A stretch of 64,000 nt of DNA from Branchiostoma lanceolatum (Eukaryota; Chordata; Leptocardii; Amphioxiformes; Branchiostomatidae): positions 1,054,001-1,118,000 of the forward strand of contig NC_089723.1 of NCBI RefSeq assembly GCF_035083965.1, written 5' to 3'. A program made the position numbers and the translations under genes. Position 1 is the stretch's first letter, and every line of letters begins with the position of its first letter. This document shows positions 14,186 to 48,015 of this stretch, in pieces. Below the pieces are notes generated by a model. The model was given only the letters and a program-made list of their open reading frames with translations, ran no database searches and was not told where the DNA came from.

Positions 14186-15095
14186 GTGCCATGCTAATTC
14201 GTACAAATAGCACCAACACTAACTTGTAAGCAAACGAAGCTGCGTGGTATTTCTAATCATTTGGTGACTACATGAAGAAGTTTTCTACATGTCTCCTATT
14301 TCGTGTAGTTCGCAGTTTTGCGCATCTTTGGTCGCTATGCTGTAAGGAAAATTCTGGTGAGCAAGAAACTGATGAGATGGCTGCCGACATAATTGACGGT
14401 TACGTTAATTGATAATTACACTGATGGCGATAAAAGGCGAAAATGAGTCTCCGTCAGTCATACTTCTAGCTGAATAAACAGTGGACATTAGCTACAATGT
14501 GTCGAAGGTACTTCGCCATCCCTAACATTAAAAGTTCCGAGAGGAGTGCAGTGGAGACCAGGTTGTGATTGAGCATCGCGCAGAGCGGTGGGAAAATGTT
14601 ACACGAAGCTAACACAAAAATAGCACATAAACAGCACGCGCAATAACCGTCACTAGGTGTGCCAGAACCAGCAGTTATAGCCGTTATACATTTAAACGAA
14701 TGATGAGCTGGTTGGACGAAGGTCACTGAATGTATGTTTGAAAACAAACAGGAATTCAATAACGCTTCATACTTGATTAGCTCTGCCTGTAACGGTGTTG
14801 TTGCGTCAAACCCAGCGTTATGAAACAACATTTATGAACAACTACACACACACACACAAATAACGGTTGTAACGGAAAGTACTCTTAATAAGAAAGGAAT
14901 AAATGGACGTATGCATTTTTTGCAAGTGTTGGCATTGAATGTATGGGCAGACGAATGGGTGACTGAATGAACGAACCAATCGAGGAATGAGACAATGGGT
15001 CTATGTTTGTATGAATGAAGCGATGAAGGAAGAAATGAAGGAATGAAGGAATGGAAGAAAACCTGGATCTGAAGGAAGGACGGAGCATGTCTTAC
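14186..15095. other. Non-coding, downstream of the splice donor at 15095
   Basis: This should be intron of the minus-strand coiled-coil gene, because its exon ends in a donor at 15095-15094. A 121-codon minus-strand open frame at 14466-14831 has no recognisable motif. 14940-15070 is a GAATGAAGGAATG-like degenerate tetramer repeat. Confidence 0.45.
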
Positions 15096-16330: not shown

Positions 16331-16510
16331 ATTACCTGGCGCTTGGTTCGGCCACCCAGGTCTCTAGGTGGCCATGATGTGTGCCCGGCTGATAATTGCC
16401 CCGGTTCACGTCACACGTGGGTATGTGCTGTTGTCCCGCCCACCCGGAGCCGTTGGTCCGGTTCTCTGTTGTCCTTGTGCGCCGCGCCGCCAGGTGTGAT
16501 GTCACAGATG

Positions 16511-18885: not shown

Positions 18886-21800
18886 TCAGACTACCAGAAC
18901 GACAAACGTCCACATCAGAACCAGGATGAGCCCACTCGCCACATTGCTGGCCCCGCCACTCACGGTCGCCTCCATAAGTTCATCTGCAATGAAATAGACA
19001 CAACTGAAGTAATAAAGAGGAATGGTTGCTTTGTCGTGTTGCTTAGGCCCATACATAAGCGCCTGGGAGGAACCATTGGGCACAGAATTGTTGCCAAATC
19101 ATTCTAGTATCATCAACCATAAATCTCGCTTACAATCTTTTTACTTTCAACCAGTAGGACAAAACCTTCTTGCATTGCAATTGGTAAAGCGTTCGCCAGA
19201 GGACGCGGTATGAAATCCTAATTCGCAACTTGGTAGCAGTCACCGGTACAATACTCGTTTTCAGTATCTCCCCAGCTCCATCTATCTCGTTACTAGGGTA
19301 GTGAATATGCCCCCAAGCCCAAGCTGACCTGTTTGATCCTCAAGTGGCCAGAGGTACTCCCGCCAGAAGGCACAAGGCCTGGCCCTGGGCCACTGCGCAA
19401 CTCGGACCGGCTGTGTGTCCAGCACAATGTAGGACTGGTCAGTCTGGTTGTAGACTGGCCACAAATCGTTCCCAGGGTCGTTTGGGTCTCTGCAAGAAAA
19501 AAGGAATAGTTTCGAAGTTTCAGAACTTGTTATCAGTGCGCGTCATCTACCAATTTGAATGCAAAATGACAAACCGTCAAATACATTGATCAACATATTA
19601 TTGGTTGTTTGGTTGCACTTCGTTGCCTTCTTTGCTGCATTGTAGAACTGACTGTTGTCTTATTCACAAATCAATCAAAAAATCAATCAACCAACCAACC
19701 AACCAACCAGCCAACTGACTGACCGACCAACTATCACCAAACTAGCCAGCTGACCACTCAGAATCCCAGCTAGAAAGGCGTCGTTTGCGAGCAAATACAG
19801 CATATTTCAATCCATCTCCCTCTTCATGCAAAAATGTACTGTCTACAATCAAAGGCATAAGGCACATTGAAAAACACCTTTTAGGCGATATGTACCCCCT
19901 GGTTGAATAAATAGAAAGAAAACACAGATCTCCTCTACATGATTGACATTCGATTTCGTTGCATCTTTAACCCCAAATAAACAGTGAATGTGCGGAGATC
20001 CCCTCGATTGGAACTCCGTTCTCGTAAAAGTTTCTACGACTTCCCCTTTTGGTTGCAACGGATATTGAATGCTAAAAACAATAAATGTCAATCCTTTACA
20101 TACAGTATAGCTACTTCGGGGTTTCTTACCCAGTCCTGGCAAAGTTGGCCCAGAACCGCATCACTCTACGCGCCAGCTCGTGTTCCTCCGCGGTGAATCC
20201 GGATTCCGGATCCAGAGCGCTTCCGGAGACGAATGGCGAGAGGGCGGAGTGCAGAACCCCGGTCCACGGCGGTAGGGAGCTGGTGGACTTCCGGTGGTCG
20301 AACTGGTACAGGTACGTCCTGGCGCCTCCCGAGCGCGCATGCGCGTCGACGGTCTGAACCACGGGGCACTTGAATGAGAAATCGCTGGTCAGACTCTCCA
20401 TCGCGTCACGGTAGGTCTCGGGCGCACTGATATGTGCCCAGTCCATGTAGTGAAACGCCACCGCGTCCACCCCGAACTCATTGAGCTCCGGAATCAGCGA
20501 CTGGATGCCCCGGATGTACTCTTCCTTGGTGATGAGACCCTCTGTTGCTAAGCTGAATCCTGGAACCCAACTCTGGTTGAGAAGAAACGACATCCCTTCG
20601 TTCGTGTTGTAACCGGCTATCATGTCCACTGTGGTAAACGGCGGGTCTGCGCTTGCCACATCCGGGGTATTGGGTAGAAATTTCCCGTAAACCACCGGTG
20701 TAAAAGATGGCCTCAGAAAGCCGTCCGTAGCGGACTGTCGGTCCACGATGTCACTCGCGGTGACGTCACGCAGACATCGAACGGTGTCGGAGGCCTTGGG
20801 TTTCCAGCAGCCGAGGGATTCGGCAAGGGTGCGCCCTCGGGCCGCGGCGACGTCATTCGGCGTCAGTGCCCAGGCGCAGAAGGCCGCCCCGCTCTGAAGG
20901 ATAACGCGGCGGAACAAACCATTGTTGGACGGGGAGAGCAACTGCAGCCCCACGCTGGCTCCTCCTGGGCCAAAAACGTGCAGAAAATGATAATAATGTA
21001 TGATTTTTTTCTCAGTTTTATACTTTAATTTTTCTACATTCCTCCACATATATACATTCATATGGCAACGAGACGTCGTAGCTTGTAACGATTTGAACGT
21101 CTTGTCTTAACGTTTTGAACTTACAACTTTCCCTAAATGATTATGATTTATGAATATCCCCCACAATCCGAAGTTCGCTTGAACACCCGTAGTACGTATA
21201 TTTGCTAGATACTAAACCATTCATATACAGGGCAAAGATACTCCAATGTACCTGCGCTACTGCCGAAAATGGTGACCCTGTCTGGGTTGCCTCCGAACCT
21301 CTCTATGTTTTCCTGTACCCACTGTAAGGCCAGCTTCTGGTCCAACAGTCCCATGTTCCCCGGGGCATCGTCCGTCCCGAGCGCCAGGAACCCCAGCGCC
21401 CCCACTCGGTAGTTCATGCTGACGAGGATGATGTTTTCTCGCGTGACGAGACGAGACACCGACCTCATGGATCCCGCCCCACCTCGGAACCCCCCTCCGT
21501 GGATCCAGACCATCACAGCGTCACCTGGCGGGCCGGACCGGCGCTGCCAGACGTTCAGATAAAGGCAGTCCTCGCTTCGGGTGTCCTCCTGAAACAGCAT
21601 GGCAGCAGGGGATACATTGAGGAGGCAAGGAAAGAAGGAAAAAAAAACAGACAACAGTCCACAGGGTAAGGGTGACACTGAGAACATGGAAAATAGTATC
21701 GAGTTTATTGCTTGGTTTGCTGTAGTGTAAGTTCTACGACAAGGAGACTTATTCGACATGACATTTCTACCTGGTTCTTTTGCAGAAGCTGGTAGCATCG

Positions 21801-22052
21801 GTTAGAAAATTTCGTCGCGTTGTAGACTCCCTCCCAAGGGTCGGGCGGGACCGGCGGCTTGAAGCGCAGCTCCCCTACAGGCGGCTTGGCGTAGGGAATC
21901 CCCAGGTAGGCGTTCACCTGTGTGCCCGCCACGTCTACGACTGTGCCCCGGACGGTGCCAGCAGGCAGATCCACCAGCGGCTCAGAACTACCAACTGACA
22001 TCGTCACGAGGAAAACTGCCGAAAGCACGGCTTCGATCAGAAACACCTTCAT
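18886..22052 (-). CDS. Carboxylesterase/cholinesterase-like protein, esterase 1 (five exons)
   Basis: Alpha/beta-hydrolase of the type-B carboxylesterase family, predicted to hydrolyse esters outside the cell. Exons on the minus strand: 22052-21771, 21588-21252, 20964-20130, 19489-19329, 18983-18886. All junctions are GT-AG and phases join to 570 residues. I chose the Met at 22052 because it opens a signal peptide ([17 protein letters not shown]); an upstream in-frame Met would bury it. Family signature EDCLYLNVW is at 100-108 and [16 protein letters not shown] holds nucleophile Ser205. Glu329 (NTNEG) and His445 (GVLHS) complete a triad spaced as in acetylcholinesterase. The residue before Ser is Ser, not the usual Glu. 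The C-terminus is a hydrophobic tail (about 550-570), so a GPI signal or membrane anchor is likely. It runs opposite to its three paralogues; exon 1 is nearly identical to theirs while exon 3 is diverged. Confidence 0.9.
19670..19735 (+). repeat. Tetranucleotide repeat (AATC then AACC)
   Basis: Runs of ATCA, CAAC and GACC tetramers in intron 3 of esterase 1. Confidence 0.85.
19915..20030 (+). repeat. Dispersed repeat in esterase 1 intron (pairs with 24135-24250)
   Basis: Shares TTTCG(T/G)TGCATCTTTAACCC, a TATGCGGAGA/TGTGCGGAGA block and TTGGAACTCCGTTCTC with 24135-24250 in the same orientation. Non-coding. Confidence 0.75.
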
Positions 22053-22456
22053 GTTGGCCCGTGCGGGTGTGCTGTTGTTTAAAGTCTTTGGACTGAAGGT
22101 TGGACCTTTGTTCTCCAAGGGTCAGACTTGACGACTGAGGTCAGCCGATATCAAACTTTTCTGTTAGTATAACAACAGCGAGGTTGACATGTGTACCTGC
22201 ACTGGTTGTCCGATATATGCAAAATAAATTCCGACCCGACTGAACAGGTGGTTTAAATGTCGTCGCGCGTGTCCGTCTCTTAAACGGTCGACGCTATTTA
22301 TAACGGTTATCGCCATATCGATGACCGGTCGATACCATATCCGAACGTTTCATTATTTTTTTGTACGCTGACAAGACGCAAAAATGTAGATAAATCAAAT
22401 CTTTGTAATTTTTGTGTGCACCCTATAAATTTTGAAGCGTCGAAGTGTCTCATTTG

Positions 22457-24879: not shown

Positions 24880-27800
24880 ATGCTGTGGTCAGCTGTTCTC
24901 CTGTCGGCCCTGGCCGTTCTCGCCGGCGCACAAACCAACTCACCAACCAACAACAACCTGGCCGACGCTCAACGCTTCCTCAGCGACTACAATGCGCGTG
25001 CGCAGGACGTCTGGAACGCTTACGTCGTGGCGTCGTGGAACTACGACACCAACCTGACGGAACACAACAACGACGTACTGGTACGCAGGCGCACTAAGCT
25101 GGTTATGGCTTGGTCACATTCTTCGTACGATTTTTTCTCTCGTAGGATTTTCAGCTATACTATGACAAAAGCGACAATAGACAAAGTCAAAGAGCTACGG
25201 CAACCTTTTTTAAAGTCGAAAAGAATTTTGTACGACGTCCCCACGATGTCCTGTTGCTGTCGTAGCTCTGACGTACGACGAATGTGACCGGGTATTTACG
25301 TACGTACTTTGTGTTTGTGATATTTCCCGGACAGGGCCCTTACGGAATGCTGTCCTTTCTTGTGATATATCCCAGAGTTAAACGGTTCCTCAGGTCACCT
25401 CAACCCCGCGTCACGCCCCCTTCCTGCGTGCCCCGCACTTGTTCTGGTGATGATTACGCCGCATTTCTGCAGCTGTGCTTTATTATGTTTTTGGCTCGAG
25501 CTGCAGGTCTAGAAAGGTAGTCTAGTAGGCTACAGGGCCAACGTTTTAGTATCATTGTGCTGATGATTGTGCAGTTTTACAATTGCACATATGTTCGTAA
25601 TGCTGACACCTTTACGTCACGTAAATCAAGTGATCAAGCGGAGTAGTTTCTCCTACACCCCTCCCCTGCGTGAACACACCGATGGCGAAGCTTTCTTCAC
25701 ATGCCAACAGAAACGACATTATGTAAACTGCCCTGGGTTCACCTGGCCTTGGCGTGTAACAGACGGAGAAGGGGTCAGACGAGATATAGTCTCAAACAGA
25801 GTCCTTCAATTCAGGGGCTACAAAATCACAAAAAGCGACCGAATAGGGCGAGTGACGTGACAGAAAAGGCTCCGGTATAAACTTACTCTAAACTTCTCTG
25901 GCAAATTCTTCAGATCGCTGGGAAAATTGTACTTTTCTTTACCCAGTCACAACAATCCTGTGAGGCGAGGATTTCATGACCGCTCTGCGTACCTTAAATT
26001 GTGCTAACAATATAAATATAAGGGATCTAAGTGTTTAGTGAGAACATTCTTGACACGGGAAAACCACAAAGCCTTGGGGTACAGTGGGCTTCGTCAATGA
26101 GTAGCTATCAACACTAGTGTCACAACTTGTTACCTTTGACCCATGTTGCAACACCACTAGCTACACAGTTCACATATGGGAAAAATCTTGTCCTCGCAAC
26201 ATTTTCTCAGTTGCAGTGTGTGTACTCAGGGTGTATCAAACTAAGCTGTTGACTAATAGCACTGTGATAAGGGGCCGCGCAAAGCTAATTTCCTGTTTAA
26301 CAGATCCCGTCAATTTTACCAAAGTCAGCAACAGCAGTTGTTTATAGTTTCAGCATTGTAAGACGCTCACAGGGTAACCTGAGTCAAAAATATCAGAGAA
26401 ATACGTCGCCGTGGCTGCTTCGTGTTCTATTCGCTGCCTGGATCTGCTGGCCGTTGTTTTTGTGGCTCTTAATTGTCATGTCGATTTGGGCAATGTTTAT
26501 AAACTTTATGAAAAGGAGCGGTTTTACACGTTGGCTTGTTTTTTTATACTCTTCTAATCCTGTTTGGAACGACTATTTCAGTATACTTTGGTCGATATCC
26601 CACTCGAACCATGCTTGAAAGCGTTTCCCACCGCGCATGTTAGCTGTCATGTACTTAGGTAAAGATTGACGGCTAACATTGTGAGGAATTGGACATGTTT
26701 GCAGACATGCAGCCGATAAGGCTCGGTCTTCATCAATACGTCACGCATTAACGTTACATGTCGGGAGGTACTCCATGTGGAACTGGCTTCTGATTGGTTA
26801 CCTGGTGTGACACGATGTGACCTGACATGACCCTGTTCACGCTGCTCTGACCTACAGTGTTTGTAATCGCCGAAGTTACAAGACGGTTGCTACACAAGTA
26901 CATTTGAGATTGACACAGGCGTACACAAACAGCTTAGGGGAAGTGCGCAGGATAGCTGGCGCAGTAAACAGTGAAATCAACAACAAAGTACACAACTTAG
27001 CAACTGTTATATTTGATTTTACGAAAGCGTTTGACAACATTCACAGCAGACAGACCAGAGTTTAGATATAAAGATATTGTGGGATTTCTTGCATTATGAA
27101 TGCTAATTCTGTAGGCACGCATGTAACAGATCCAGCCGAGTTCACAACTGAGCATGTGAAATGTGTGTTGGGATTCCAGTGGTGTGTGTCCGTGTGTTGT
27201 TAGGGCAATAAAGTGTATAATATGTGAGGTGATGTTTCCCTGTGTCTATATTGAATCGGATTCCTTGCGACGCAATGTTCCCTGTGTTCATGTTAGTAGT
27301 CCTTCGTAGCTGAAAACCACCGTCCGGTGTACTCATCACGTGCTAATGAAAAAAAGAAGAGTGTTCGCTTTATCATCGATAAGTCGATAAGTACCTTATA
27401 ATACATTTTCCCACACTTAAGTTAGGAAAGGAATGTCTTTGTCACACATCATTCGATAATTCACCAATAGCTAGTTTCCCCCACACTATATTTGTATGTG
27501 TGCAGCGAGAGTGTACGTGAGACTTCATTCCCTGTTTCAAAATTCCCAGCTGGAGAAAAGCTTGGCGCTGACCGAGTTCGAGGCCGCGGCTTACGTCAAC
27601 AAGACCAAGTTCAACACCACGGGCTTCCCCGATGACGTCATCAGAGAGTTCGACTTCTTGGGGAGCGCGCCACAAGAAGGGGACACGGCGAGACGGGTCA
27701 GTCGTTCTCTTTTTCTCTGTCTCCTTTTTTCTATGGTGTCTCTGCCTCTCTCCACGCAAGGCACGCAGGAATCCTGGCGCAGGCCTCTCGAACGTTTAAG

Positions 27801-30800
27801 AAAACCTTAACAAGTACAAGTACCCCCTGTCTTTTTTCTTTCATTCTTTCGGATACCCAAGGTTCTTTTTTTGTAGCCTTTTTCTTTTTCTCCTTTCCTT
27901 TGTCGGCTTTAATCTTAATTTCTTCCTTCCAGTTGTCAGTATGGTTCCAATTGCTTCTTTTTTCTTTGCTTCTTTTTTTTTCTTATTTTCATTTTCATCG
28001 CTCAAGTCATTTACCTTCCTTCTCACAAGCCTCTCTGTCGCCCTCCTCTTGTTCTTTTATTTGTCGTCTGCAATCTTGATTTCTCCCTTTGGAGTTGTCA
28101 GTTCGGCTTCAGCTATGACGCAATAACGTCCCTGTGTGCCCGCGCAGCTTCAGGAGACGCTGTCGGCGATGGGGCGGATCTACGCCGTGGGGCAGGTGTG
28201 CGACCAGGACGACCCGGACAACTGCCGCGGCCTGGAGCCGGGTAGGGCCGTTTGCCTCTGATGCGTGACATTGCCGAAAATCAAACATATATGATAGTCA
28301 AGTTTAGTCTAGTGTATTACACAACAATTGCATCAGGTACAATGTATGGCAAATAACATGGAATATTATTAACTGCGGACTATTTACGATAGTGTACTAA
28401 TCTAACATCTTACTCGATACATAAGATATGAATACATACAGAATGATATAGAACCAGCTACTACCGCGCTGCGTGCCTTTCTGCTATATGAACCATTCTA
28501 CCCTTCTTGTTCTAATCAATAAAGATAATACTGATATCTTTTACTCATGATGACTTGCACACAGGATTGACGGAGATCATGGCGACGTCACGTGACTACG
28601 AGGAGCGGATGTGGGTGTGGCTCCGCTGGCGTGACGCCGTCAGTAAGGCCATCAGGCCGCATTACGTCACCTACGTCGAGCTCAAGAACCAGATCGCACG
28701 AGCAAACGGTAGGTCATCTGACATCATTACGTCATAGATAACGTTACCTACGTCCAGCTCAAGAACCAGATCGCCCGGGCAAACGGTAGGTCATATGACG
28801 TCATGACGTCACAAATTACGTAACATACGTCCGTTTAAGGAACCAGATAGCCCGAGCAAACAGCACTCCTGACCCCAAACCATGACGCCAGTTTGGGGTC
28901 AAACGTGCCAGGAAGACTGTATCGTCCCTCGTCCCGGATCTATGTAGAGTGTGCATTGCTTGTGTGAAGGAAAGTCCAAACTTTGTTCAGCATTTTTAGA
29001 TGTTAGATACATGATGTGTCCCTCATAGCGCACACTGGTCATTACGGTCATCAGTTGGCAGTTGTTCATGATATGACACATTTGAACATGACACGTTGTA
29101 CATATAGCAAGATTAATATTAGGGTTAGTTGTTCATCATATTTTGAACATGATGTACCCTGCAGGTTACACTGATTACGGAGACCTGTGGAGGCGGAAGT
29201 ACGAGACCGACACGTTCGAACAGGACATGTTGGACATCTGGGAGGAGGTGAAGCCGTTCTACCTGGAGCTGCACGCCTACGTCCGCCGGAAGCTGTATGA
29301 CGTGTACGGCGACAAGATCAACCTGAAGGGACCACTTCCGGAGCACCTGCTGGGTAGGACCAAGGACCACTCAAGCTTTATTTCATAGATAATTGTATCG
29401 CATACCAGTTTTGCACTGCAGAGTATAAGCTGCATCTCCAGGCAAATTTATTTTAAGGGAGGGACTCCTCTTCTTTTCGATAAGTGTGGTGGGTTCTTTT
29501 ACGTGCTTGAGGTGTGGCTCTCCTCAAACAGACGACCTTCATAACGTCCTATCCGAGATACGTCCCTTACCGAAGCTAGAGACTCATTTTCACCTGAGTG
29601 AAGTGAGAAAATTCGTGTACAGTGCCTTTACCAACAGCACGACGTTAACGGGGCATGTCAGGGGATTCGAACTCAGGACCTCTGGGTTCTAGGCCAAACA
29701 CCTGCAATTACGCCACCACGACGCCAATCTTTATCGAAAGTTGAATGTCCTTTCTTTACATGAGAATACACTGTAACTAATACTCAGAACAAGCCACTTC
29801 AAACCTTTCGTAAAGCTCCTTTTTTCCGCTGCACTTCCGCAGGTGACATGTGGGGGCGCTTCTGGACGAACCTGTACGGCATGACGGTTCCCTTCCCGGA
29901 CAAGGAGAGTCTTGACGTCACGCCCGCCATGTTGGAGCAGGTGGAGTCTCACGTTTTAATTCTTCACCTTAAAAACTGACATTTTTTTCTTCCCTCCGAT
30001 ATGTAGACTGGTACGGTGTTCTAGCTGAATGGCAATGTCCTCTGTATGCTGTTTTCGTTGTTCTGTTGTAAGCCAAGTTATAAACCAAAGCGCCGCCCCA
30101 AATGTACCTCCAGGTGACCGTTATTTCTCCATCGTCACGAAAACCCTGCTTAATAATTGGAAACCTTAGTAATTATCTCAACATATCTATCTATGCTTAA
30201 TAAATAAACAATTCAATACATTCTACAACAGCAACATCATGGAGTTTTTTAAGAACTTTCTTCGCGTCGCTTAATTTGCTGCCTCTGCCGAGGAGAAATT
30301 TTCCAACGCCCTCTATCAACTCTCTGCAGAACTACACCATCATGAAGATGTACGAGGTGTCGGAGCAGTTTCTCGGGTCCCTCGGGCTCCTGCCGCTAGT
30401 AGTGCCGTATTAACGCCCTCTATCAACTCCCTCCAGAACTACACCATCATGAAGATGTACGAGGTGTCGGAGCAGTTTTTCGGGTCCCTCGGGCTCCTAC
30501 CGCTGCCCGCCACGTTCTTCCAGCGGTCCATGCTGCAGAAGCCCACCGACCGCGAGGTCGCCTGCCACGCCACCGCCTGGGACTTCTACGATGGAGAAGA
30601 CTTCAGGTAGGCCTTTTTCTCTCATTAAGTAAAGATTACTATAACAGTACCTTTCACAAATTTTGTACTCTAATTTTCGTCTAGCATTTGCTACTTTTAT
30701 TCTTTTGCTTATTATATTTCTCTGAAGAATAATCCAGTAACAAAATGAACGAGCGACGTACATGGCTTCGTGACAATTCGTCGCGCAGAAATTTTCATTG

Positions 30801-32722
30801 ATGTGAATTTTAACGGAAGAACAGAACCTTTCGAAGTACTATATATGATTATAGATTTATTAGAACACTGTATCTTTCTTGATGTAATCTGTTATATTTT
30901 GTCCGACTCATACTTCTCCCCTTATGACCTCAATGGAAAGTTTCTAATTAATAAACAGAGGATCTAAGAAATACTTCTAAGACGTTGTTTCAGTTAAAAA
31001 GTGAAAAAGTGCTAGCCCGAGTGCCATCCGGCTACCGGGGCTAATACACTCACTACCCTGAAAATTGTCTGGGATCGGTTAGGCTAGCCTTGGAGCCATC
31101 CGATAGCCCCCCAAACTATTTTAGGGTTACCAGGCTAAAAACGTGCAACATTTGATAACAAAACATGCACATGTTTAATACGATACCGTGCCACCACCCC
31201 CCCCCCCCCCCCCCCCTACACCCTAGGATCCGTATGTGCACGAAGGTCGACATGGAGGACCTGCTCACCATCCACCACGAGATGGGGCACACGCAGTACC
31301 AGATGCAGTACGCCGACCTGCCGCTAGTCTTCCGGGACGGCGCGAACGACGCGTTCCACGAGGCGGTGGGGGAGGTGCTGGCCCTGTCCGCGGCGACTCC
31401 GCAGCACCTGCACGCCATCGGACTCCTGGACTCCGTGCCCGACGATCCCGGTACGCAACGGGGATTCTCCGTAAAACTCAATTTACATATGTCTCAAGAT
31501 AACCGACCATGCCCTACTTGTCATCCAAACATCAAGACCATAGAATGTCCATTACAAAATATGCATTGTTCATTGAAATAAAAACTGACAGGATGATAGA
31601 AGTTCCTCATCGATTATGCAAATGTAGTCCTATTCTGCATAATTTGCATTTTGTACGAGAGGAATCAAGATAGGTATTCAACAGGTCTTAGACAGAACTT
31701 TTGCGCATTCATGGGTTGTGGGTGAGTCAAAAGGAGAGCAATTGATTTTTCACACCGAAAAATTGCTCCAGTTCTGAACTCTTTGGTACAGACGAAAAGT
31801 TTAGAATTTGACCAACTTTTCATCACACAGACATAGAACTTAGATACGTAGATCATAGCGCAAAAGACGTTAGACGTAGTCTGAAGTTAGCTTTTCCGAA
31901 ACTGTAGTACGACAAGGCTCCTCAACAGCATTGCCATTGTAGGCTACTCTCCAAGAAGATGAGTGGGTCCGGCAGGTTTTTGGCGTGTTTTTAGGCGTTT
32001 TTGTCGGGCTATCTACTTTGTTATGGTTTCTTTGTCTCTATATGTGGGTTACACGCCAAAAACCTGCCGGACCCACTCCTCTGCTTGGAGAGTAATTGTA
32101 GGCCATATGTGGGTGTATGTAGGTAGGCCATAAATACCAGTGAGAAAATTCCACCAGGCTCACTTTTCTATCTTTATTTTACCGTCCCAGACGCCATGCC
32201 ATAACCTAGGTTATATGGAGGAAGGCTATAAAGCTCAATGAGAATATTTCATCAGGCTCACGTTTCTTCCCTTGCCGTCCCAGACGCGGACATCAACTTC
32301 CTTCTGCTGCAGGGGCTGAACATGATCGCCACGCTCCCCTTCAGCCTGGTGCAGGACCTGTGGCGCTGGCGCGTCTTCGCGGGGGACATCCCTGAGAGCG
32401 AGTGGAACAAGAAGTACTGGGAAATGAAGTACGTGTGTGTGTGTGTGTCTGTATGTATGTATGCGTGTGTGTTTGTTTTGTGTGTGCGTGTGTTTTCGTG
32501 TGGGCTAGCCACTGTGTATTAGCGTATCTGTCCATGTATTAGTATGCGGTTCTGTGTGTGTGTATGTGTGTGTTTGCGTGTGTGTGTACATGTGTGTATG
32601 CGCGTATGTGTAAGAGAGAGACGCACGACAGATCTTCTTTCCCATGGATTCCAGGCAGAGATAGTGGGCGTGGTGCCGCCGGTAGAGCGTGTGTGTGTGT
32701 GTGTGTGTGTTTGTGTGTCTGT

Positions 32723-32787
<65 letters not shown>

Positions 32788-35285
32788 TTAGGTGTAGAGT
32801 TATCCTGACTGACAGTAACACCTGTTCATGTTTCCCACAGGGCTGAGATAGTGGGCGTGGTGCCCCCCGCAGAGCGGTATATGTGAGTGTGTGTGTGCGT
32901 GTGTTAGAGTTGGGCGTAGTGCCGTGCTGACGTGTCCATGTTTCCTCCTAGGGCTGAGATAGTGGGCGTGGTGCCCCCCGCAGAGCGGTATATGTGACTG
33001 TGTGTGCGCGCGCGCGTGTGTATGTGTGTGTTAGAGTTGGGCGTGGTGCCGTGCTGACGTGTACATGTTTCCTCCTAGGGCTGAGATAGTGGGCGTGGTG
33101 CCCCCCGCAGAGCGAGGAGAGGACCAGCTGGACATCACCTCCATCTACCACGTGGCCAACGACTTCGACATGATCAGGTGAGACCTGTACAAAGTTAAGA
33201 CACAAATAGAACAAAAATACAGTATACTCGCTGAACTATCAACAGACGGTCAGGCCTTCTATAAAATGACAGACCCGCACAGTTGCGACGCACACGCGGG
33301 TAGCCGTCCCTCTTCCTGGTTTATTAAACTTTCAGGCCCCAAACTAAACTTTCGGCCCTCCGCGAGCAATGAAGCGTACATGTATGAGACCTGGTTGAAA
33401 TGGCCGCCTCATTGCACCTACTACTATATCCACCTTGGGTGCTAGACTCTAGCGAGTCCGGCAGCCAATTTGTTCAGCGCTCCAAGGCAGTTTGCCCGCC
33501 AACCTAGATTAGCGCTCCAGAGAATTACTAGCAAGGGATTTTATTGCCGGCTCAGGTTGTCTGGAAAACTACTTTGGGCTGGCAAACAAATTAACTGCCT
33601 GTCCCGCTAGTCTGACACCCAGAGTACACTACAAATAGCACTGTATGGATCTGAATCAGAAGATCTGATGTGTAAGTGTTGTCTATGTAGGTAATGTAAG
33701 TATCTAAGTGAGAGTGTTTCCCCACAGGTACTACGCCCGGACCATTATTGAGTTCCAGTTCCAGAAGGCGATGTGTGACGAGGCGGGCATCACCGGACCG
33801 CTCTACAAGTGCGACATCTACAACTCCGGGTCCGCGGGGACTAAGCTGGCGTGAGTACTCAGCTTTTACGTTTCATACACGCCTTTCACGTTTCTTACAC
33901 ACCTTTTATAACACGCCTTACAGAACATGCCAGCATTGATTTGATTTCCTGGATTTTCTAAAGAAACAAATGAAGAAGGCGAACGAAATAACAAAACAAA
34001 GAAAAGAATCAAGCACGTTTCATACACACTTTTACTACATGTCTTACACAACATGCAAGCAATACTACATTTGTGTTCATGAGAAGGTCATACCAATTCA
34101 ATTTCTTGGATTTTTCAAGAAATCGATAAAGGCGAGCGAACTAACCAAACAAAGAGAAGAAATGAAGCATCGTCTGATAGGACCAACTGTTACCGCCATG
34201 ATCTACAAGATAAACACTTGTTTGTTGTTATCTCCATGAAAAATGGAGATATAGTTTTGGGTGTGTCTGTCTGTGTGTGTGTTTGTCTTTTGTCTGTTTG
34301 TTTGTCTGTCTGTTTGTGTTTCTGGACTACTGTAGTCAGCATAACTCAAGAACCTCTTGATGGATTACAATGATATTTAGTATGTTGGCAGGTGTTGTGA
34401 AGCCAAAGTTCAAGGTCGATTTTGGGCCCCCTGGTATGTGACCTTGTTTTGTTTGTTTCTGCTTCCAGGAACATGTTGAAGCTGGGCCGGTCCCAGCCGT
34501 GGCCGGACGCCATGCAGGAGATGACGGGGCAGCGGAAGATGCTGGCGGACTCCTGGAAGGCGTACTTCCAGCCGCTGTACGTCTGGCTGCAGGAGAAGAA
34601 CCGGCAGAACGGAGACGAGCCCGGCTGGGACGTCAACTGGAGACCGGGTACGTCTGCACACCCGACGTCACGTCTTCATGTACACTTACATGTACACGTG
34701 ACGTCACGACTTCATGTACAACTACATGTACACGTGACGTCACAACTTTATGTACAGCTGCATGTATACGTGATGTCACGACTTCGTGTACAACTACATG
34801 TACCCATGACGTCAGAACTTCATGTACATGTGACGTCAGAACTTCATGTACATCTACATGTGCACGTGACGACACAACTTCATGTACTACTACATGCACA
34901 CGTGACGTCACGACATGGGTACACATATTTCCATAGCCGCCATGTTGGTAGAACAAATAGGTCCAAGATGGCGACCGGTTAATCGCAACGCACTGACAAC
35001 CTCTGCTTATCATTGCTTACTTCAAATGTTTTATCTCAATCTCCTAAGCGATCAGCACATAAACTAGTTGTCACTTCTGACCTCGATAACTTCGATCAGT
35101 ACGCCCGTGGTTTCCATTCTCTCTCTCTCTCGATGTTGATGGAAACCTCACGCTTTTCGATTTTGCACTTTTTCACGCCATGTTGTTTTCCCGCCACAGA
35201 TGCTAGCAGCGCCACCGCCACGCTTCCCGCCACGCTCCTGCTCCTGGCGATCAGCAGCGTCACCGGTCTTCTTCTGTTTGCCTAG
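24880..35285 (+). CDS. ACE: ACE/ACE2-family zinc metallopeptidase, single domain (13 exons)
   Basis: Peptidase family M2, trimming C-termini of peptides outside the cell. Exons: 24880-25080, 27550-27696, 28148-28241, 28565-28708, 29165-29353, 29843-29940, 30437-30606, 31227-31450, 32284-32428, 33079-33177, 33728-33850, 34469-34647, 35200-35285. All are GT-AG and phases join to 632 residues. A signal peptide covers about 1-17. Zinc site HEMGH is 365-369, with third ligand Glu393, 24 residues on, as in the family. Arg264 (DMWGRFW) sits where ACE has Gln281 and ACE2 has Arg273. Ile493 and Met502 ([15 protein letters not shown]) replace ACE Lys511 and Tyr520, as non-polar or aromatic residues do in ACE2. 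His495, Arg504 and Tyr505 are kept. This predicts ACE2-like carboxypeptidase specificity (inference). There is no collectrin domain; the C-terminus is a short hydrophobic tail that could be a GPI signal. Introns contain partial copies of exons 4, 7 and 10. Confidence 0.92.
26920..27065 (+). pseudogene. Reverse transcriptase fragment in intron 1 of the ACE-like gene
   Basis: An open stretch of about 48 codons ending at TAG contains [14 protein letters not shown]. This matches the palm motif A of non-LTR retrotransposon reverse transcriptases, with the catalytic Asp of FDF and the typical KAFD. No other RT motif follows, so it is a short fossil. Confidence 0.55.
27780..28110 (+). repeat. Pyrimidine-rich tract in ACE-like intron 2
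   Basis: Long T/C-rich stretch with TTTTTCTT and CTTTGTCG/CTCCTTT-type words recurring at about 27870-27910 and 28060-28090. Intronic low-complexity sequence. Confidence 0.6.
28746..28860 (+). pseudogene. Two decayed tandem copies of the 3' end of ACE-like exon 4
   Basis: 28746-28798 and 28816-28860 repeat the end of exon 4 and its donor (CTCAAGAACCAGATCGC, GCAAACGGTAGGTCAT). Neither copy is flanked by an acceptor, so they are intronic debris. The first retains a donor-like GTAGGT. Confidence 0.8.
29455..29725 (-). mobile_element. tRNA-derived SINE
   Basis: On the minus strand the head reads GGCGTCGTGGTGGCGTAATT (box A-like) and then GAGTTCGAATCCCC (box B) about 50 bases on. These are the internal pol III promoter elements of a tRNA-derived SINE. 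The body continues to a T-rich end near 29455. It lies in intron 5 of the ACE-like gene, antisense to it. Confidence 0.7.
30308..30412 (+). pseudogene. Truncated upstream duplicate of ACE-like exon 7
   Basis: 30308-30399 repeats the last intron bases, the acceptor (CTCTGCAG) and the first 70 bases of exon 7. It then breaks off after CTGCCGCTAG into TAGTGCCGTATTAA, which gives an in-frame stop. The true exon starts at 30437 with acceptor CCCTCCAG. Splicing to the upstream acceptor would truncate the protein. Confidence 0.85.
31197..31216 (+). repeat. 20-C homopolymer at the exon 8 acceptor
   Basis: Twenty consecutive C residues end 10 bases before the exon 8 AG (31225-31226) and take the place of the usual T-rich polypyrimidine tract. 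Confidence 0.85.
31947..32092. mobile_element. Fold-back element, copy 2
   Basis: Ends CTCTCCAAG and CTTGGAGAG with arms carrying GTGGGTCCGGCAGGTTTTT and its complement, related to 6597-6791. It is flanked by TA on both sides. In intron 8 of the ACE-like gene. Confidence 0.8.
32427..32790 (+). repeat. GT-rich microsatellites
   Basis: Interrupted (GT)n tracts at 32431-32620 and a longer tract at 32686-32781 (with about 25 pure GT repeats at its end), starting right at the exon 9 donor (GTACGTGTGTG). Confidence 0.95.
32651..33010 (+). pseudogene. Three tandem partial copies of the start of ACE-like exon 10
   Basis: The acceptor plus the first about 40 bases of exon 10 (GCTGAGATAGTGGGCGTGGT, then GCAGAGCG) recur at about 32651-32688 (decayed), 32834-32878 and 32945-32989 before the true exon at 33079. 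The last two retain AG acceptors but run into TATATGTGA, an in-frame stop, and GT repeats. They are decoy 5' exon ends. Confidence 0.85.
33433..33621. mobile_element. Probable MITE in ACE-like intron 10
   Basis: Imperfect terminal inverted repeats of about 35 bp: the left end has GGGTGCTAGACTCTAGCG, then GGCAGCCAATTTGTT; the right end is its complement, ending CGCTAGTCTGACACCC. No ORF. Confidence 0.6.
34216..34448 (+). repeat. Dispersed repeat family (copy 1) in ACE-like intron 11
   Basis: Starts ATCTCCATGAAAAATGGAGA (a small hairpin), then a GT/TTTG-rich tract, then CAGCATAACTCAAGAACC and TGGATTACAATGATATTT. The same sequence recurs at 63248-63560 and, more diverged, at 56267-56620. It ends about 20 bases before the exon 12 acceptor. 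Confidence 0.8.
34662..34917 (+). repeat. 36-bp minisatellite rich in TGACGTCA
   Basis: About seven copies of a unit combining CACGTGACGTCAC with TTCATGTAC...CATGTAC. At least five units keep an exact TGACGTCA, the cAMP-response element palindrome, often overlapping CACGTG. In the last intron of the ACE-like gene, starting just after the exon 12 donor. Confidence 0.9.
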
Positions 35286-35514
35286 ATCCGTCCTGTAGCC
35301 GACGACGTCATCACCAACGTCATCGCCGACGTCATCGCCTACCCCGTCATCCCAACCGCTGCCACCCGAACCGGAAGTGGATCAAGCGAACCGGAAGAAA
35401 AATTAACCGCCGTAACCGACGCGGAGTGAGGCGTCAGCCTTAGATTAGACCGGCTCATTTCAAAGCTCCTCTATGTAAGATTTTGGCGCTAAAGTTTGAA
35501 ATATTATTGTGAAC
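35286..35514. other. 3' untranslated region of the ACE-like gene
   Basis: Directly follows the stop codon. It starts with a short run of GACGTCATC repeats (35306-35350). I saw no exact AATAAA within it. Confidence 0.5.
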
Positions 35515-36440
35515 AAATCTTAATGCAAATGACATGTACTACAACGTTTTGGCATATTTTCATAATTATTTCGTAACTTGTGTGAAAGATGATTAAGACG
35601 TGCCCTTTAGCCCACAACCAAAGTTCGCTCTTTAACTTCACTCTGAATGTTTCTGTTCATTCGTATCTTCAGGTTTCAGTAGTTGCAACTGCCAGTGTGC
35701 TGAATACGTGCCCTGTATATACTTCACTTGATGCTTCCCAACAGAAGGCTGTATACATTCTTAACGATTACATATTATCAAAATGATGCCTATCTCATTT
35801 ACTTGTCGAGAGACATCATTGACAAAGATCTAAATTAGAGAACGATATCCGTCATTAGAATACTATGATCATGACAAGAACACGAGATACAAAAACCAGG
35901 TGGTCTGCAATCGAACTTGTTCGAACCACCAAACTTCATTACAATCCATCAATTGCGTCTTAGTTATGCTGGGAAAGTATGCGGTCTGTATAGAAGTATG
36001 CAGACACACCGAGAACAATACCTCCGTTCACGGGCATAATGAGGCTATGCCGGCTGTGGGGATATATGCACATTTGGATTAATATTAGTTTGGATTAATA
36101 TAAACCATTAGTGGATTTACTTAGATTGGAGTGAGAAAAGTTTGGTACATTTTTCCGGCAAGGTCTCCTTAACTTCTATCCACCTACGCCCTGTATACAT
36201 GTGACGAGGTGCGGTTACGTGTCTACACAGTCCTGTAAATAGTCAACTGATAAGCAGTGTGCTCCAGATCGCTTTGTTGACATCTTCTGAATGTAGGACT
36301 TAGGAGCTGTCAGTCGAGCTCAAAGTCCAGCGGTAACATTTAGGGTGAAAGACGGACCATGAATAGTATCAGCAATTGGGGCAGGGCAATATTTGTAGTA
36401 CCGTCGCTTCTAGTGACAGTATGTCAAGTCTCTGGTTAGG
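35515..36440 (+). repeat. Segmental duplication, copy 1 (pairs with 37345-39330)
   Basis: Shares long blocks in order with 37345-37864 and 38685-39330, for example CATAATTATTTCGTAACTTG, CAATACCTCCGTTCACGG and TTGTTGACATCTTCTGAATG. 36376-36440 is a dead copy of the esterase signal-peptide leader: its start is ATT and the frame is broken by TAG. Confidence 0.85.
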
Positions 36441-36459
36441 CAGCAACGATCGATCTAGA

Positions 36460-36645
36460 TACTGTAAATGCAAAAATGTTCGCGGTGGTTTTATGTTCGC
36501 GTTTGTCGCGATGAACTTTCAGCGAAACTTTTTGCCCACCTATGATTGCAGCGCTGCTATTGTTTCTAACGTGAACTTTTTATCACGGCGAACAATCCAT
36601 TTTCTCCCTACCATAAAAGCCACGCGAACTTAAGTGCATTTATAG
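36460..36645. mobile_element. MITE, second member of the TTCGCG family
   Basis: Begins TACTGTAAATGC and ends GCATTTATAG, with ATGTTCGCGGTGGTTTTATG near its left end and CACGCGAACTTAAG near its right end. Related to 5126-5332. Confidence 0.7.
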
Positions 36646-37068
36646 CATTTATACTTAAGCACGTTCATTCCTTAGGGAGAGAGGACCTTTCAATAGTTCT
36701 GGTCAAAAAAACACCTTCATGTTGTTGTCCGGTCAAACAATGTGCGGCTATCAGAAAGCTACAGCCTGTTTAGTAAACAACAGGGCACTTTACAACCCAG
36801 CATCCAGATGGGGGTATGACTTCAAAAGCATCAACACCAAATATGGTCAAAATTCTTCTTTTTTTAACATTTACTCAAAACCTTACACTATCTCATCAAC
36901 TATCAAAAGGTTAACAGCAAAAGGGGTTTTCAAAGTTATTTGACCAATGCAGCATAATTCTGATCTCTCACCGATCAGACTACGCGCGTGGTTCCGTCGG
37001 GACTGGTCTCTAGTTTGCTTATATCTGTAGATAGACATGTCAGCATCACTGTTTCACTGTCATAAGTT

Positions 37069-37279
37069 TGATATCGGCTGACCTCAGCTGTCAGGTCTGA
37101 CCCCTGGAGATCCTCCAGTCCACATAGTTTGTTGCACACCAGTTCAGGCCAACATGAGGGGGTTTCTGGTCGAAGTCGTGCTTTCTGCGGCAGTTTTGCT
37201 CGTGAGGATGTCAGTCGGTAGTTTTGAGCAGCTGGTAGATCTGCCTGCTGGCACCGTCCGGGGCACAGTCGTAGACTGT
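37069..37279 (+). pseudogene. Truncated esterase 5' leader and first exon
   Basis: 37069-37153 matches the 5' leader of esterase 1 (GATATCGGCTGACCTCAG). From the ATG at 37154 it encodes a signal peptide and the conserved [15 protein letters not shown], then breaks after the GTAGAC codons into unrelated sequence (GACTGTCTCTTTGAATCG) that also occurs at 39027-39044. No further exon of this copy exists here, so it cannot make an enzyme. Confidence 0.85.
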
Positions 37280-37344
37280 CTCTTTGAATCGTTACTATAA
37301 TCGTTACTATAATCGTTACAAATATATATTTGAAAAATATTCTT

Positions 37345-37864
37345 ATGAACAAACCCTAATGACATGCACAACCACTTTTCAGTATATTTTCATAATTATT
37401 TCGTAACTTGTGTGAAATATGATTTATAAGTAACCTTCAGCTCATAACCAAAGTTGACTCTTTAACTTCACTCTGAATGTTTATGTAAATTCGTATGTTC
37501 AGGTTTCAATCGTTCCAACTGCCAGTGTGCTCAATACGTGTCCTGTATACTAGTATACTTCACTTAATGGAGATGCTTCCCAAAAGAAGGCTGTATACAT
37601 TCTTAACGATTCCATTATTAAAATGATGCCTCAATTTCATTTACTTGTCGAGAGACAATGATATTATTGACAAAGATCCAAGTTAGAGAACGACATCCAT
37701 TATTAAGATACCATGATCATGACAAGAACACGAGATATAAAAACCAGGTGGTCTGTAATCGAACTTGTTTGAACCACCAAACTTCATTACAATCCATCAA
37801 TTGCGTCTTGACTATCGGCTGGTAAAGTATGCGGTCTGCATAGAAGTATACAGACACAACGAAA
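37345..37864 (+). repeat. Segmental duplication, copy 2, left part
   Basis: Counterpart of about 35515-36010. Continues at 38685 after an 820-bp insertion. Confidence 0.8.
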
Positions 37865-38684
37865 ACTAGAAAGGCCGTCATTTGCCCCTGAGCAAATACA
37901 GCATGTTTAGCCATACTCCTCCCCATGCAAGAAGTGTGCTGTCCCAAAATAACACCTGGGAAAATCGAAATATTAACTGCACGTAGAAAGGCAATATTTG
38001 CGAGAGCATCATACTTCGCCAATCTCCCTCCCGATGCATAAATTGACTGTTCCAAAATCACCCGTGCAAAAAAATTCTCTCTACAAGTTCTGCGAGACCC
38101 TAAGAGCTTTTTACTGCAAAGGCTTGCGTGTGTTCCTGCAATATGACCTCAAGTAACCTAAATAGAACACGTGTTCTTTGGCCAATAGCAAATGGAACGC
38201 GGGGATCCTTAGATAGAACATGGATTCTTTGGCCAGCAGCAAATAGAACATGGAACGGGGATACCACTTTTGGCCTGTTTTTGGTCTGAAATGGGTCCAA
38301 AAGTCCCAACATGAAGCATTTTTAAGTGATGTACACCAGATATATGTTGGAAGTCCTGTAGGGACATGTTCAAGGCACCCTTGTACCGAATTTCAGGTCA
38401 CTTGCTTGTAAAACCAGGCCACAGGAGCCCAAAATATAGAAATTGTCTAAAAATGCCCCAAAAAACCTCCATAAAAATGATTTTCAGGTCTGTTTCAAAA
38501 AAATAAAATAAGAAACACATGAGGGTATTTGCCCTCTTTACCTCTATGCCAAATTTCAGGTCAGTTGATTAAAAAATGGCGGAGTTGAATCCATTTGAAG
38601 ATTTGGCAGGAGGAGAAGAAGGAGAAGAAGAACATGAACAAAAACAATATGTTGAGCCATACTAGGTATGGCTAAACATAACAA
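37865..38684. mobile_element. 820-bp insertion in the duplicated tract
   Basis: The paralogous tract at about 36010-36020 runs uninterrupted where this copy has 820 extra bases, which gives an empty-site comparison. The left end contains CAGCATGTTTAGCCATAC and the right end has AGCCATACTAGGTATGGCTA, so both ends carry TAGCCATAC-type sequence, one inverted. Two about 120-bp tandem units starting TAGAAAGG lie at its left. A related left end is at about 19771. No transposase seen. Confidence 0.65.
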
Positions 38685-39330
38685 TACCTCCGTTCACGGA
38701 GATAATGAGTCTGTGGGAATATGTGCACGTTTGAAGCAATATTAGCCGTGAGTGTATTTACTTAGATTGGGGACACGAGAAAAGTTTGGAGTACTTTTCC
38801 GGCAAGCGCTCCTGACTACCTGTAATGGGGCGTGAATACATGTCTATACAGTCCTGTAAACAGGTCTGATTATTTAGCACATCTATTCAGTTAGTGTAAG
38901 TAAAAGATGCCAAAATACGAAGTAAGTGAAAACGTTGTGCTAGTGGTTTTAAGCACAATAATTTAGCAGTCTATAGTGAATTAATGAGCTAACATATGTC
39001 TAACTCATTAAATCACAAATAACAGACTGTCTCCTTGAATCGTTACTATAATCGCTTACTAGTAAATCGATGAGCTAACATGTCTCTAACTCAATGAATG
39101 TGCCAAATAGCTAGAGCTCTGTAAACAGTCAGCTGACAACCAGTTTGCTCCGGATCACTTTGTTGACATCTTCTGAATGTATAGGACTTAGGAGCTGTCA
39201 GTCGGGTTCAAAGTTCAGCGGTAACATTTGGGGTAAAAGATGGGCCATGAATAGCATGGACAATGGGGGCAGGAACAACATTTGTGGTACTGACGCTTCT
39301 AGTGATGGTATTCCAGATCTCTGGTTTAGC
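38685..39330 (+). repeat. Segmental duplication, copy 2, right part
   Basis: Counterpart of about 36011-36440 with local rearrangement and a CGTTACTATAATCG block shared with the truncated exon break at 37290-37320. Confidence 0.75.
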
Positions 39331-39445: not shown

Positions 39446-39540
39446 CGTGTCACCCTCACTGTTTGACTGACCCCTAGTCTGACCACTGGAGAACCTCCGG
39501 TCCGGACAGTTTAAACAACAGCACACAGGCACAAGCCAAC

Positions 39541-42131
39541 ATGAGGGTGTTTCTGAACGAAGTCGTGTTCTGCGCGGCAGTTTTCCTCGTGACGATGTTA
39601 GTCGGTAGTTCTGAGCCGCTAGTGGATCTGCCTGCTGGCACCGTCCGGGGCACAGTTGTAGACGTGGCGGGCACACAGGTGAACGCCTACCTGGGGATTC
39701 CCTACGCCAAGCCGCCTGTAGGGGAGCTGCGCTTCAAGCCGCCGGTCCCGCCCGACCCTTGGGAGGGAGTCTATAACGCGACGGAGGTGTCGAGAGACTG
39801 TTACCAGACTCCTGGGTATGGTGAGGTATGCCATGTAGCAGTATGATTACAACGATTTAAACTTGTTATTCTTAACTGATAGACAAGATATAGTCGCACA
39901 ACTTTAGTAGCAGTGACTTGTTGCCTCCTCGGTTGACCTCTTGACCTTTGCTCTCACATGTGGGGTTTGTAACGGACAAAACTTCGCATGCGTACATTGA
40001 GCTAAAGAAGTGCGTATCACATTTATAGACAGATGGTAGCACTTATTCGTTAGGCTGAGAACAGTGATATTTCAGAGTTCCAACAGACCATGAATATGGC
40101 CAGCCTCCCTTCCACAGGACAAGCGCAGCGAGGACTGTCTGTACGTGAACGTGTGGCAGTCCTCCTCCCAACCGCACGACGGCGCTGTTATGGTGTGGAT
40201 CCATGGGGGAGGGTTTGTAGGCGGTGCTGCCACCTATTATGGTGAGGATGGACAGTTCCTGGCAGCCACGCAATCTGTTCTGGTGGTCAGCATGAACTAC
40301 CGACTGGGGGCGCTAGGGTTCCTGGCGCTCGGGACGGACGATGCCCCGGGGAACATGGGACTGTTGGACCAGCAGCTGGCCTTACAGTGGGTACAGGACA
40401 ACATAGAGAAGTTCGGAGGCAACCCGGACAGGGTGACCATATTTGGAACCAGTGCAGGTACTTTGGTTTGAACTTGCCTTCTCAATGCAATCATCAACTC
40501 ACGTAAGATGAAATATCTTTGATTTTAGAATCAATGCCTTTGAGTCGCCTTTTTGGAGTTTTTACAGTGCAGTTTGGTCGTCTTCTTTTCCATAACGCGC
40601 CCGTTTCACCTCATCTCCCCAGGAGCATCTAGTGTCCACTTCCATCTCCTGTCCCCCTCCTCCAGCGGTCTGTACCAGCGCGCCATCCTGCAGAGCGCGT
40701 CGGCCTTCTCTCACTGGGCCCTGACACCGAGGGACGTCGCCATGACCCGAGGGCGCGCCCTCGCCTCCGCCCTGGGATGCAAGCAGCCCGAGGTCCGAGA
40801 CATGGTGGCCTGTCTGCGCGGTTCTTCTGCGGATGACATAGTGGACAACCAGCCGCAAGGGTTTCTGGACTTCGGTTTTACCCCGGTGGTTGACGGGAAC
40901 TTTCTGACCTCTGACCCGTCTGATCTCGCCACCAGGGACCGTTCTAATGTTGACGTCATGGCTGGTTTCACAACGAACGAAGGGACCTATTTTCTAGCCG
41001 GGCAGCCATCGCTAGGTTTCAACCCTTCAACTGACAGTTTCATCAGCAAGACCCAGTTCAACAAAACTATCCACGCGCTCCTGCCGTCCCTGAATGAGTT
41101 CGGGGTTGACGCCGTGGCGTTTGAGTACACGGACTGGCGGAGCCTGGAGAACCCGGCAGTGTACCGGGACGCCGCGGTGAACATGGTCGGGGATTACTCC
41201 TTCAAGTGCCCGGTGATAGAGGCCAGCCTGGCGCGTGCTCGTGCCGGCGGGAAGGTGTACATGTACCAGTTCAACCACGTCTTGTCAGTTCTTCCCCCGT
41301 CACCCTGGATAGGAGTTCGACACAGCACTGAACTTTATATGGTATTCGGTTTGACCCTGGATCCCAACCAGAATTTCCCCCCTGAAGAAAACCGACTAGC
41401 CATGGAAATGATGCGGCTCTGGACCAACTTTGCGAAGACAGGGTAGGTGCCTCCATTTGATACATCTATCGCATATCGATAAGCGACTGTAGCTAGAATG
41501 ATGTCGTTAATATTGTCTGAAGTGTGACTGCATTAGAACGTTTCCAGTCCAAAGTGTTATGAACATGAGACCTAAATGAAGCCACTCTCCTACATACACA
41601 GAAACCCCAACGACCCTGGGAACGAGATGTGGCCAGTCTACAACCAGACTGACCAGTCCTACATTGTGCTGGACACACAGCCGGTCCGAGTTGCGCAGTG
41701 GCCCAGGACCAGGCCTTGTGCCTTCTGGCGGGAGTACCTCTGGCAACTACAGGATCAAACAGGTCAGCTGGTTCTGCTACTCGATTCTATCATGAACCTG
41801 TGACAGTATGATTTATCCTATCCTGGTCTATGTAACATTTCATGACTCAGTAATAGAAACATCATATGGGGACTTCTGACTGCGCTTTGTTAAGACTTAT
41901 GAAACTCATCGTGGCGAAACCCAAATGTAGTACGTTTCTTTATAGTTAAAGATTCTCCATACTAAGTGAATTATGTCTTTTTGTTATAAACATGTAGATG
42001 TCTGCATCTGTTTTGTTGTTCCAGACGACCTTCTGCAGAATCTGCCGGCAGCGGGTACCGGGGTACCCACCACCCTGTCCTGCCTGGTGTACATAGGCCT
42101 GGCGATCTTCCTTCTGGTGAAGCACTACTGA
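39541..42131 (+). CDS. Carboxylesterase/cholinesterase-like protein, esterase 2 (five exons)
   Basis: Type-B carboxylesterase. Exons: 39541-39825, 40118-40457, 40623-41442, 41602-41762, 42025-42131. All GT-AG and in phase, giving 570 residues. Signal peptide [18 protein letters not shown] starts at the chosen Met. EDCLYVNVW lies at about 100-108, and the nucleophile elbow FGTSAG holds Ser207. Glu328 (TTNEG) and His442 (GVRHS) complete the triad, so the enzyme should be active. The position before Ser is Thr instead of Glu. The C-terminal exon encodes a hydrophobic segment ending LLVKHY, consistent with a membrane anchor or GPI signal. Exon structure equals that of esterase 1, including the first intron that esterases 3 and 4 lack. 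First of three direct tandem copies. Confidence 0.92.
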
Positions 42132-42839: not shown

Positions 42840-43212
42840 CAACTATCACCAGGTCAATAAATAAGTTCCCAGATAGATAAGATTAGGCGCCCAAATAATT
42901 CGCACTAGTCGCGTCCCGTGCCCAATATACACCAGCAAGAAGTGGTGGACAACGTAGCGTACTCTCAAAATAGTACCGGCCCGGGAGGTTTTAGCGATCG
43001 TTTTCAGACAGAAAGATTCTTAAATGAGGGGCTTTACTTCTGCCATTTAACGTTGATAAACTTTCATGCAAGCTTCTTGGTTGTACAAGACAAGTCAAAG
43101 CTGTTGTTCAGTTCTCTTCCTGTCCTGCTCCGTCCTGACACTGTTTACTCAACCAGGTCAAAGTCCAAAAATTGGACGTGAGGTCACCGTCGGGTCGCAA
43201 ACTGCGCTAACG
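42840..43212 (+). promoter_or_regulatory. 5' flank of esterase 3, unit copy 1
   Basis: Contains CACCAGCAAGAAGTGGTGGA (a short inverted repeat), TACCGGCCCGGGAGGTTTTA and TTCTTGGTTGTACAAGACAA, all conserved in the ghost unit at 46740-47066 and split between inverted and direct parts upstream of esterase 4. Conservation across copies suggests it holds the promoter; I saw no clear TATA box. Confidence 0.55.
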
Positions 43213-47883: not shown

Positions 47884-48015
47884 TTGTACAGGACAAGTCA
47901 AAGCTGTTGTTCAGTTCTCTTCCTGTCCTGCTCCGTCCTGACACTGTTTACTCAACCAGGTCAAAGTCCAAAAATTGGACGTGAGGTCACCGGGGGGTAG
48001 CAAACTGCGCTAACG

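Follow-up and report, generated by a model that had tools for sequence, protein, structure and literature searches.

A probable ACE2-lineage peptidase gene in amphioxus, with a partly ACE2-like substrate pocket and a short hydrophobic C-terminal tail

The window analysed here, a stretch of 64,000 nucleotides from Branchiostoma lanceolatum, carries on its plus strand an ACE-family gene bounded by an ATG at 24880 and a stop codon ending at 35285, which are exactly the two ends proposed in the first-pass annotation. Its 13 exons are separated by 12 introns, all of the GT...AG type, and splice to a coding sequence of 1899 nt (632 residues and the stop) with a GC3 of 0.88; each of the 13 lies inside an open reading frame (ORF) of the high-GC3 list. 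Exon 1 (24880..25080) holds the start codon, a hydrophobic N-terminus resembling a signal peptide and the beginning of the M2 domain. Exons 2 (27550..27696), 3 (28148..28241), 4 (28565..28708) and 5 (29165..29353) follow, then exon 6 (29843..29940), which encodes DMWGRFW with Arg264 (Arg273 of ACE2, Gln281 of ACE), exon 7 (30437..30606), with His335 (ACE2 His345), Ala336 and Thr337, and exon 8 (31227..31450), with the HEMGH zinc motif and Glu393. Beyond exon 9 (32284..32428), exon 10 (33079..33177) contributes the AEIVGVVPP loop, Ile493, His495, Phe500 and Met502, exon 11 (33728..33850) the RYYART segment, exon 12 (34469..34647) the end of the M2 domain, and exon 13 (35200..35285) the stop and a mostly hydrophobic C-terminal tail of 28 residues, similar to a GPI signal or a short anchor. 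A divergent N-terminus had led us to suspect a further exon between exons 1 and 2; this was ruled out because in that region the spliced length agrees with the aligned ACE C-domain. Four N-glycosylation sequons are found in the protein by pattern search.

Nine ORFs around the gene were submitted to a Pfam search, which returned carboxylesterase for four, leucine-rich repeats for three, a sub-threshold intermediate-filament match for one and no match for the last. None of the nine is known as a neighbour of vertebrate ACE2 or ACE, and these nine ORFs speak neither for nor against synteny. The gene is flanked by four likely carboxylesterase genes, each with PF00135 in one ORF and an extent taken from the ORF list, at about 19285-22121 on the minus strand and at about 39478-42128, 43060-45644 and 48001-50123 on the plus strand; two of the plus-strand copies have a nearly identical hydrophobic tail ORF. 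The plus strand also displays a 1021-residue open frame with stretches of very high GC3 (52212-55274, no Pfam match) and, according to Pfam, ORFs with LRRNT and leucine-rich repeats that are probably two genes (57245-62436). On the minus strand, an ORF of 423 residues (15095-16363) begins with a long stretch rich in Arg and Asp and has an intermediate-filament match of 31.9 bits, below the Pfam cut-off.

The product belongs to a single Pfam family, PF01401 (Peptidase_M2), which covers residues 26-598 and scores 780 bits, the cut-off being 23. Splicing of the 13 exons yields the protein that had been assembled at first sight, 632 residues long, with the zinc signature HExxH present as HEMGH at 365-369 and its downstream glutamate as Glu393. 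DMWGRFW is located at 260-266, HVANDF at 495-500 and RYY at 504-506. The zinc ligands, the catalytic glutamate and both substrate histidines are all kept. A complete zinc site and two intact substrate histidines make it most likely that the protein is an active enzyme.

The substrate pocket was read in an alignment of five sequences (A1), which is gap-free around the columns of Arg264, Ile493 and Met502. The replacements put forward in the first-pass annotation fall in the expected columns: Arg264 stands where ACE2 has Arg273 and ACE has Gln281, Ile493 where they have Leu503 and Lys511, and Met502 where they have Phe512 and Tyr520, respectively. In ACE2 numbering, the pocket thus comprises Arg273, Phe274, Thr347, Met360, Lys363, Ile503, Phe510 and Met512. 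The two ACE domains, N and C (PDB 9clx and 2iul, which we take to be those of human somatic/testis ACE), and Drosophila AnCE alike have Gln273, Lys503 and Tyr512. This triad (Gln281/Lys511/Tyr520 in ACE) is absent from the window protein, which has Arg/Ile/Met, and from three vertebrate ACE2s: 2ajf, 9c6o from Pteronotus davyi, and 9jrc, labelled 'Angiotensin-converting enzyme' in the PDB and assignable to ACE2 on the strength of DMWGRFW and of the ACE2 insertion that it carries. Arg273, a hydrophobic residue at 503, a residue other than Tyr at 512, Phe274, Thr347 and an aromatic residue at 510 are features that the window protein shares with the three ACE2s; none of them occurs in ACE N, ACE C or AnCE. 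An ACE2 flavour had also been ascribed early on to the IVGVVPP region and to the segment from HVANDF to RYY; the IVGVV loop (IVGVM in 9jrc) and RYYxRT are shared with the ACE2s. The roles of Arg273, Leu503 and Phe512 in ACE2 as against Gln281, Lys511 and Tyr520 in ACE are set out in the accessible part of PMC7642307, where the arginine is described as blocking the S2' subsite.

A scan of prokaryotic contigs matched at least 593 stretches, at least 544 of them encoding a relative; the best 80 of these 544 were analysed, with the M2 reading frame of each locus picked by phmmer score. As they were retained for their similarity to the query, these homologues are not a random draw. All 80 have the Gln/Lys/Tyr triad and all 80 the four zinc/catalytic residues, while Met360 is present in 70. 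At the DNA level, within one phylum (398 genomes), a pattern for the Gln form (HLLG[DN]MWxQ) finds matches in 20 genomes, and its counterpart with Arg (or Ser encoded by AGY) in none. The uniformity of the triad in the 80 prokaryotes and the contrast between 20 and 0 genomes place the residue change beyond chance. A scan of viral contigs returned 29 pattern matches, none of which was a relative.

The pocket does not reproduce that of ACE2 in full. Position 346 is Ala in the window protein, as in ACE and in 79 of the 80 prokaryotic sequences, with Pro in ACE2; position 398 is Asp, as in all 80 prokaryotes, with Glu in ACE2 and Pro in ACE and AnCE; position 477 is Tyr, with Trp in ACE2, ACE and all 80 prokaryotes and Phe in AnCE; and position 149 is Thr, as in ACE. 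Pro346, Asn149 and Glu398 of ACE2, which have Ala, Thr and Asp as counterparts here, were not treated as lineage-defining; Asn149 is not fixed among ACE2s, being Glu in 9c6o and Asp in 9jrc.

Overall resemblance gives ACE2 no advantage. The window protein is 47% identical to ACE2, 47% to the ACE C-domain, 45% to the N-domain and 39% to fly AnCE. Among the best 60 of 179 phmmer matches, the top single-domain ACE C chain reaches 622 bits and 9ko7, labelled just 'Angiotensin-converting enzyme' and of the size of ACE2, 615 bits; the top chain labelled ACE2 reaches 610 bits and 7df4, which is among full matches to human ACE2, 597 bits. Since ACE C chains lead the whole-protein scores, similarity alone would not name the protein an ACE2; the pocket does. 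A tree was built from the window protein, the three ACE2s, both ACE domains, AnCE and 24 prokaryotic rows picked for diversity among the 80. It is unrooted and spans 374 columns, with one ACE2 present as a whole domain and two as partial sequences from PDB alignments over a 372-residue span; its sampling is thin, leaving aside other invertebrate deuterostome sequences and divergent insect ACEs. There the window protein forms a clade with ACE2 (support 100/99), and the AU test rejects both its grouping with ACE N and C (p = 5.5e-6) and its being held with ACE and AnCE (p = 0.002). Without AnCE, whose branch is long, the clade stayed at 100/99. Residue counts go in the same direction: the window protein and all three ACE2s have 21 residues in common that ACE N, ACE C and AnCE lack and that no more than one of the 24 prokaryotic rows displays, against 4 on the same count for ACE N, 3 for ACE C and 2 for AnCE; just three are common to the window protein and both ACE domains alone.

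The gene might instead be an ACE-type paralogue in which independent substitutions made the pocket converge on that of ACE2. Such an account would draw on an identity to the ACE C-domain as high as that to ACE2, on the better whole-protein score of ACE C among the best 60 of 179 matches, on Ala346 and Thr149, and on a tree with just three ACE2 sequences, two of them partial. Convergence was weighed by taking out 78 pocket-region columns. In the remaining 296, path lengths put ACE C closest, at 1.25, with no ACE2 nearer than 1.54, a further point in favour of that account; yet the clade with ACE2 persists at 95/94, the grouping with ACE is again rejected (AU p = 0.019, to be set beside the 5.5e-6 of all columns), and 10 of the 21 ACE2-exclusive residues come from columns that were kept. 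Within this thinly sampled set, the persistence is evidence against convergence, which we regard as distinctly unlikely. With and without its pocket, the gene sits beside ACE2; a place inside ACE is what the first-pass annotation had named as refuting its reading. As far as these sequences go, the pocket and the remaining domain agree, and much of the weight falls on the pocket. The full tree further splits ACE and AnCE from all other rows (93/83), a split that is not recovered once the pocket columns are out. If rooted on Drosophila, it would resemble the clustering of bacterial sequences with invertebrate ACE2 in the tree of PMC3354321, as presented in the accessible part of that paper. In the neighbour-joining tree of PMC1325048, also accessible in part, vertebrate ACE2 clusters with divergent insect ACEs, a group without a member in the present tree; this clustering tells against the main reading.

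Two other accounts bear on what the protein does rather than on where it comes from. It could be a non-catalytic surface protein, like some invertebrate ACE-like proteins: the accessible text of PMC1325048 describes several M2 family members outside vertebrates devoid of active-site residues. Here the zinc ligands, the catalytic glutamate and the two substrate histidines are all intact, and the idea is very improbable indeed. The protein could also belong to the ACE2 lineage and have a mixed or altered specificity, short of a strict single-residue carboxypeptidase, with a pocket that is ACE2-like in part. Ile and Met in place of Leu and Phe would fit such a compromise, as would Ala for Pro346, Asp for Glu398 and Tyr for Trp477. 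All three of the ACE residues that hold the P2' carboxylate are gone, however, and the arginine that blocks S2', according to the accessible part of PMC7642307, is present; we deem this mixed behaviour unlikely, if less so than the other two alternatives.

The C-terminus departs from that of vertebrate ACE2. A tblastn search of the window with one divergent query, the human collectrin-like part, gave no match at E<1, and downstream of the gene the high-GC3 ORF list has no plus-strand entry from 35,427 to 39,329, an interval in which a divergent or low-GC3 exon could escape such a list. The protein stops after its 28-residue tail, in place of the collectrin part that marks vertebrate ACE2, in keeping with the lack of a collectrin domain announced at the outset. 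No charged residue follows the hydrophobic run of the tail, which therefore resembles a GPI signal. This short tail probably anchors the protein at the cell surface, perhaps as a GPI signal; hydrophobic, possibly GPI-linked C-termini are described for some insect ACEs in the accessible text of PMC1325048.

We consider it quite likely that the gene encodes an M2 zinc peptidase of the ACE2 lineage, probably held at the cell surface, which should release single C-terminal residues; its pocket would then predate the fusion to collectrin. For this carboxypeptidase activity the evidence from sequence is strong, though indirect. The protein would enter the secretory pathway and then be retained at the surface via its tail. 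Zinc would be bound by His365, His369 and Glu393, with Glu366 as the general base. Arg264 is predicted to extend into the position of the S2' subsite of ACE and to pair with the C-terminal carboxylate of the P1' residue, while Ile493 and Met502 would take away the Lys/Tyr pair that grips the dipeptide carboxylate in ACE. A dipeptide leaving group would then have no anchor for its carboxylate, and a single residue would still be anchored; with Arg264 in S2' and the pair gone, the expected products are single C-terminal residues rather than dipeptides. Classical ACE inhibitors would be expected to block the enzyme poorly.

Compared with known systems, the protein has in common with vertebrate ACE2 the M2 domain, Met360 and Lys363, in addition to Arg273, Phe274, Thr347, the character of positions 503, 510 and 512, the loop and RYYxRT. 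It differs by Ile/Met for Leu/Phe, by Ala and Asp for Pro346 and Glu398, by the absence of the 10-residue ACE2 insertion (A1 columns 223-232), and in its C-terminus, no collectrin part being found in the window with the single human query. Somatic/testis ACE (47% identity for C, 45% for N) has the same zinc site, substrate histidines and Ala346; by contrast, its Gln281, Lys511 and Tyr520 are all replaced in the window protein, which is single-domain. Drosophila AnCE is likewise a single M2 domain with the zinc site, and it differs in having the Q/K/Y triad at 39% identity; the crystallised construct, which may be trimmed, has no hydrophobic tail. The bacterial and archaeal homologues (best 80 of 544) share the M2 domain, with 36-44% identity over the best segment, Asp398 in 80/80 and Met360 in 70/80, and are set apart by Q/K/Y in 80/80. 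The Branchiostoma floridae ACE2 orthologue (GenPept 260799397) is reported as a single-domain amphioxus ACE2 in the accessible part of PMC3354321. Oyster CgACE, as described in the accessible part of PMC3235092, is also a single-domain M2 protein of 632 residues with a putative C-terminal anchor, but was assayed as a dipeptidyl carboxypeptidase.

ACE2 orthology in amphioxus is prior art: ACE and ACE2 orthologues of Ciona intestinalis and B. floridae, the ACE2s single-domain, were reported by Fournier et al. (2012; PMC3354321, in its accessible part), and ACE2 in primitive chordates and tunicates is a claim repeated in what is accessible of PMC6278350. The main text of PMC3354321 nowhere uses the words carboxypeptidase, arginine or collectrin, and a literature search with subscription papers mostly outside its range, and sources accessible in part, met among the papers listed no account of the pocket residues of an invertebrate ACE2 or of how such a protein is anchored. 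What is added here is the detail of the pocket, the pocket-masked tree and the missing collectrin. In an invertebrate chordate, the gene would separate the peptidase pocket from the collectrin part, fused in vertebrate ACE2. The carboxypeptidase pocket would then be the earlier of the two, in a lineage for which the accessible parts of PMC3354321 and PMC8015242 report finding no angiotensinogen. The chances are about even that the ACE2-type single-residue carboxypeptidase pocket arose before vertebrates split off, in a collectrin-free, perhaps GPI-anchored ancestor; the enzyme function of ACE2 would then be older than both angiotensinogen and the collectrin part and would have had another peptide substrate. 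The gene would provide an early-branching ACE2 for tracing the pocket change from the Q/K/Y state of the ACE domains, AnCE and all 80 prokaryotes.

The introns of the gene have features of their own. Intron 1 contains an ORF (26826-27065, plus strand) with a 17-residue stretch that, by its motif, is similar to a reverse-transcriptase fragment. The end of exon 4 and its donor are duplicated in tandem (28661-28737 and 28738-28814, plus strand; 77-nt unit, 87%), and a third, less similar copy follows at about 28815. The start of exon 7 and its acceptor (30412-30504) are duplicated 107 nt upstream (30305-30397; both plus strand, 96% over 93 nt), and the upstream copy leads into a stop codon. Exon 10 has two exact upstream copies of its first 36 nt (32841-32876 and 32952-32987, plus strand), both flanked by AG on the upstream and GT on the downstream side and neutral in phase, so that inclusion would add 12 residues in frame and no new stop; a third, poorer copy at 32654 is without both splice dinucleotides. 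These copies are possibly mini-exons, or possibly a mere tandem repeat beside a GT microsatellite. Exons 4, 7 and 10, three of a single gene, are thus each accompanied by partial tandem copies in an adjacent intron.
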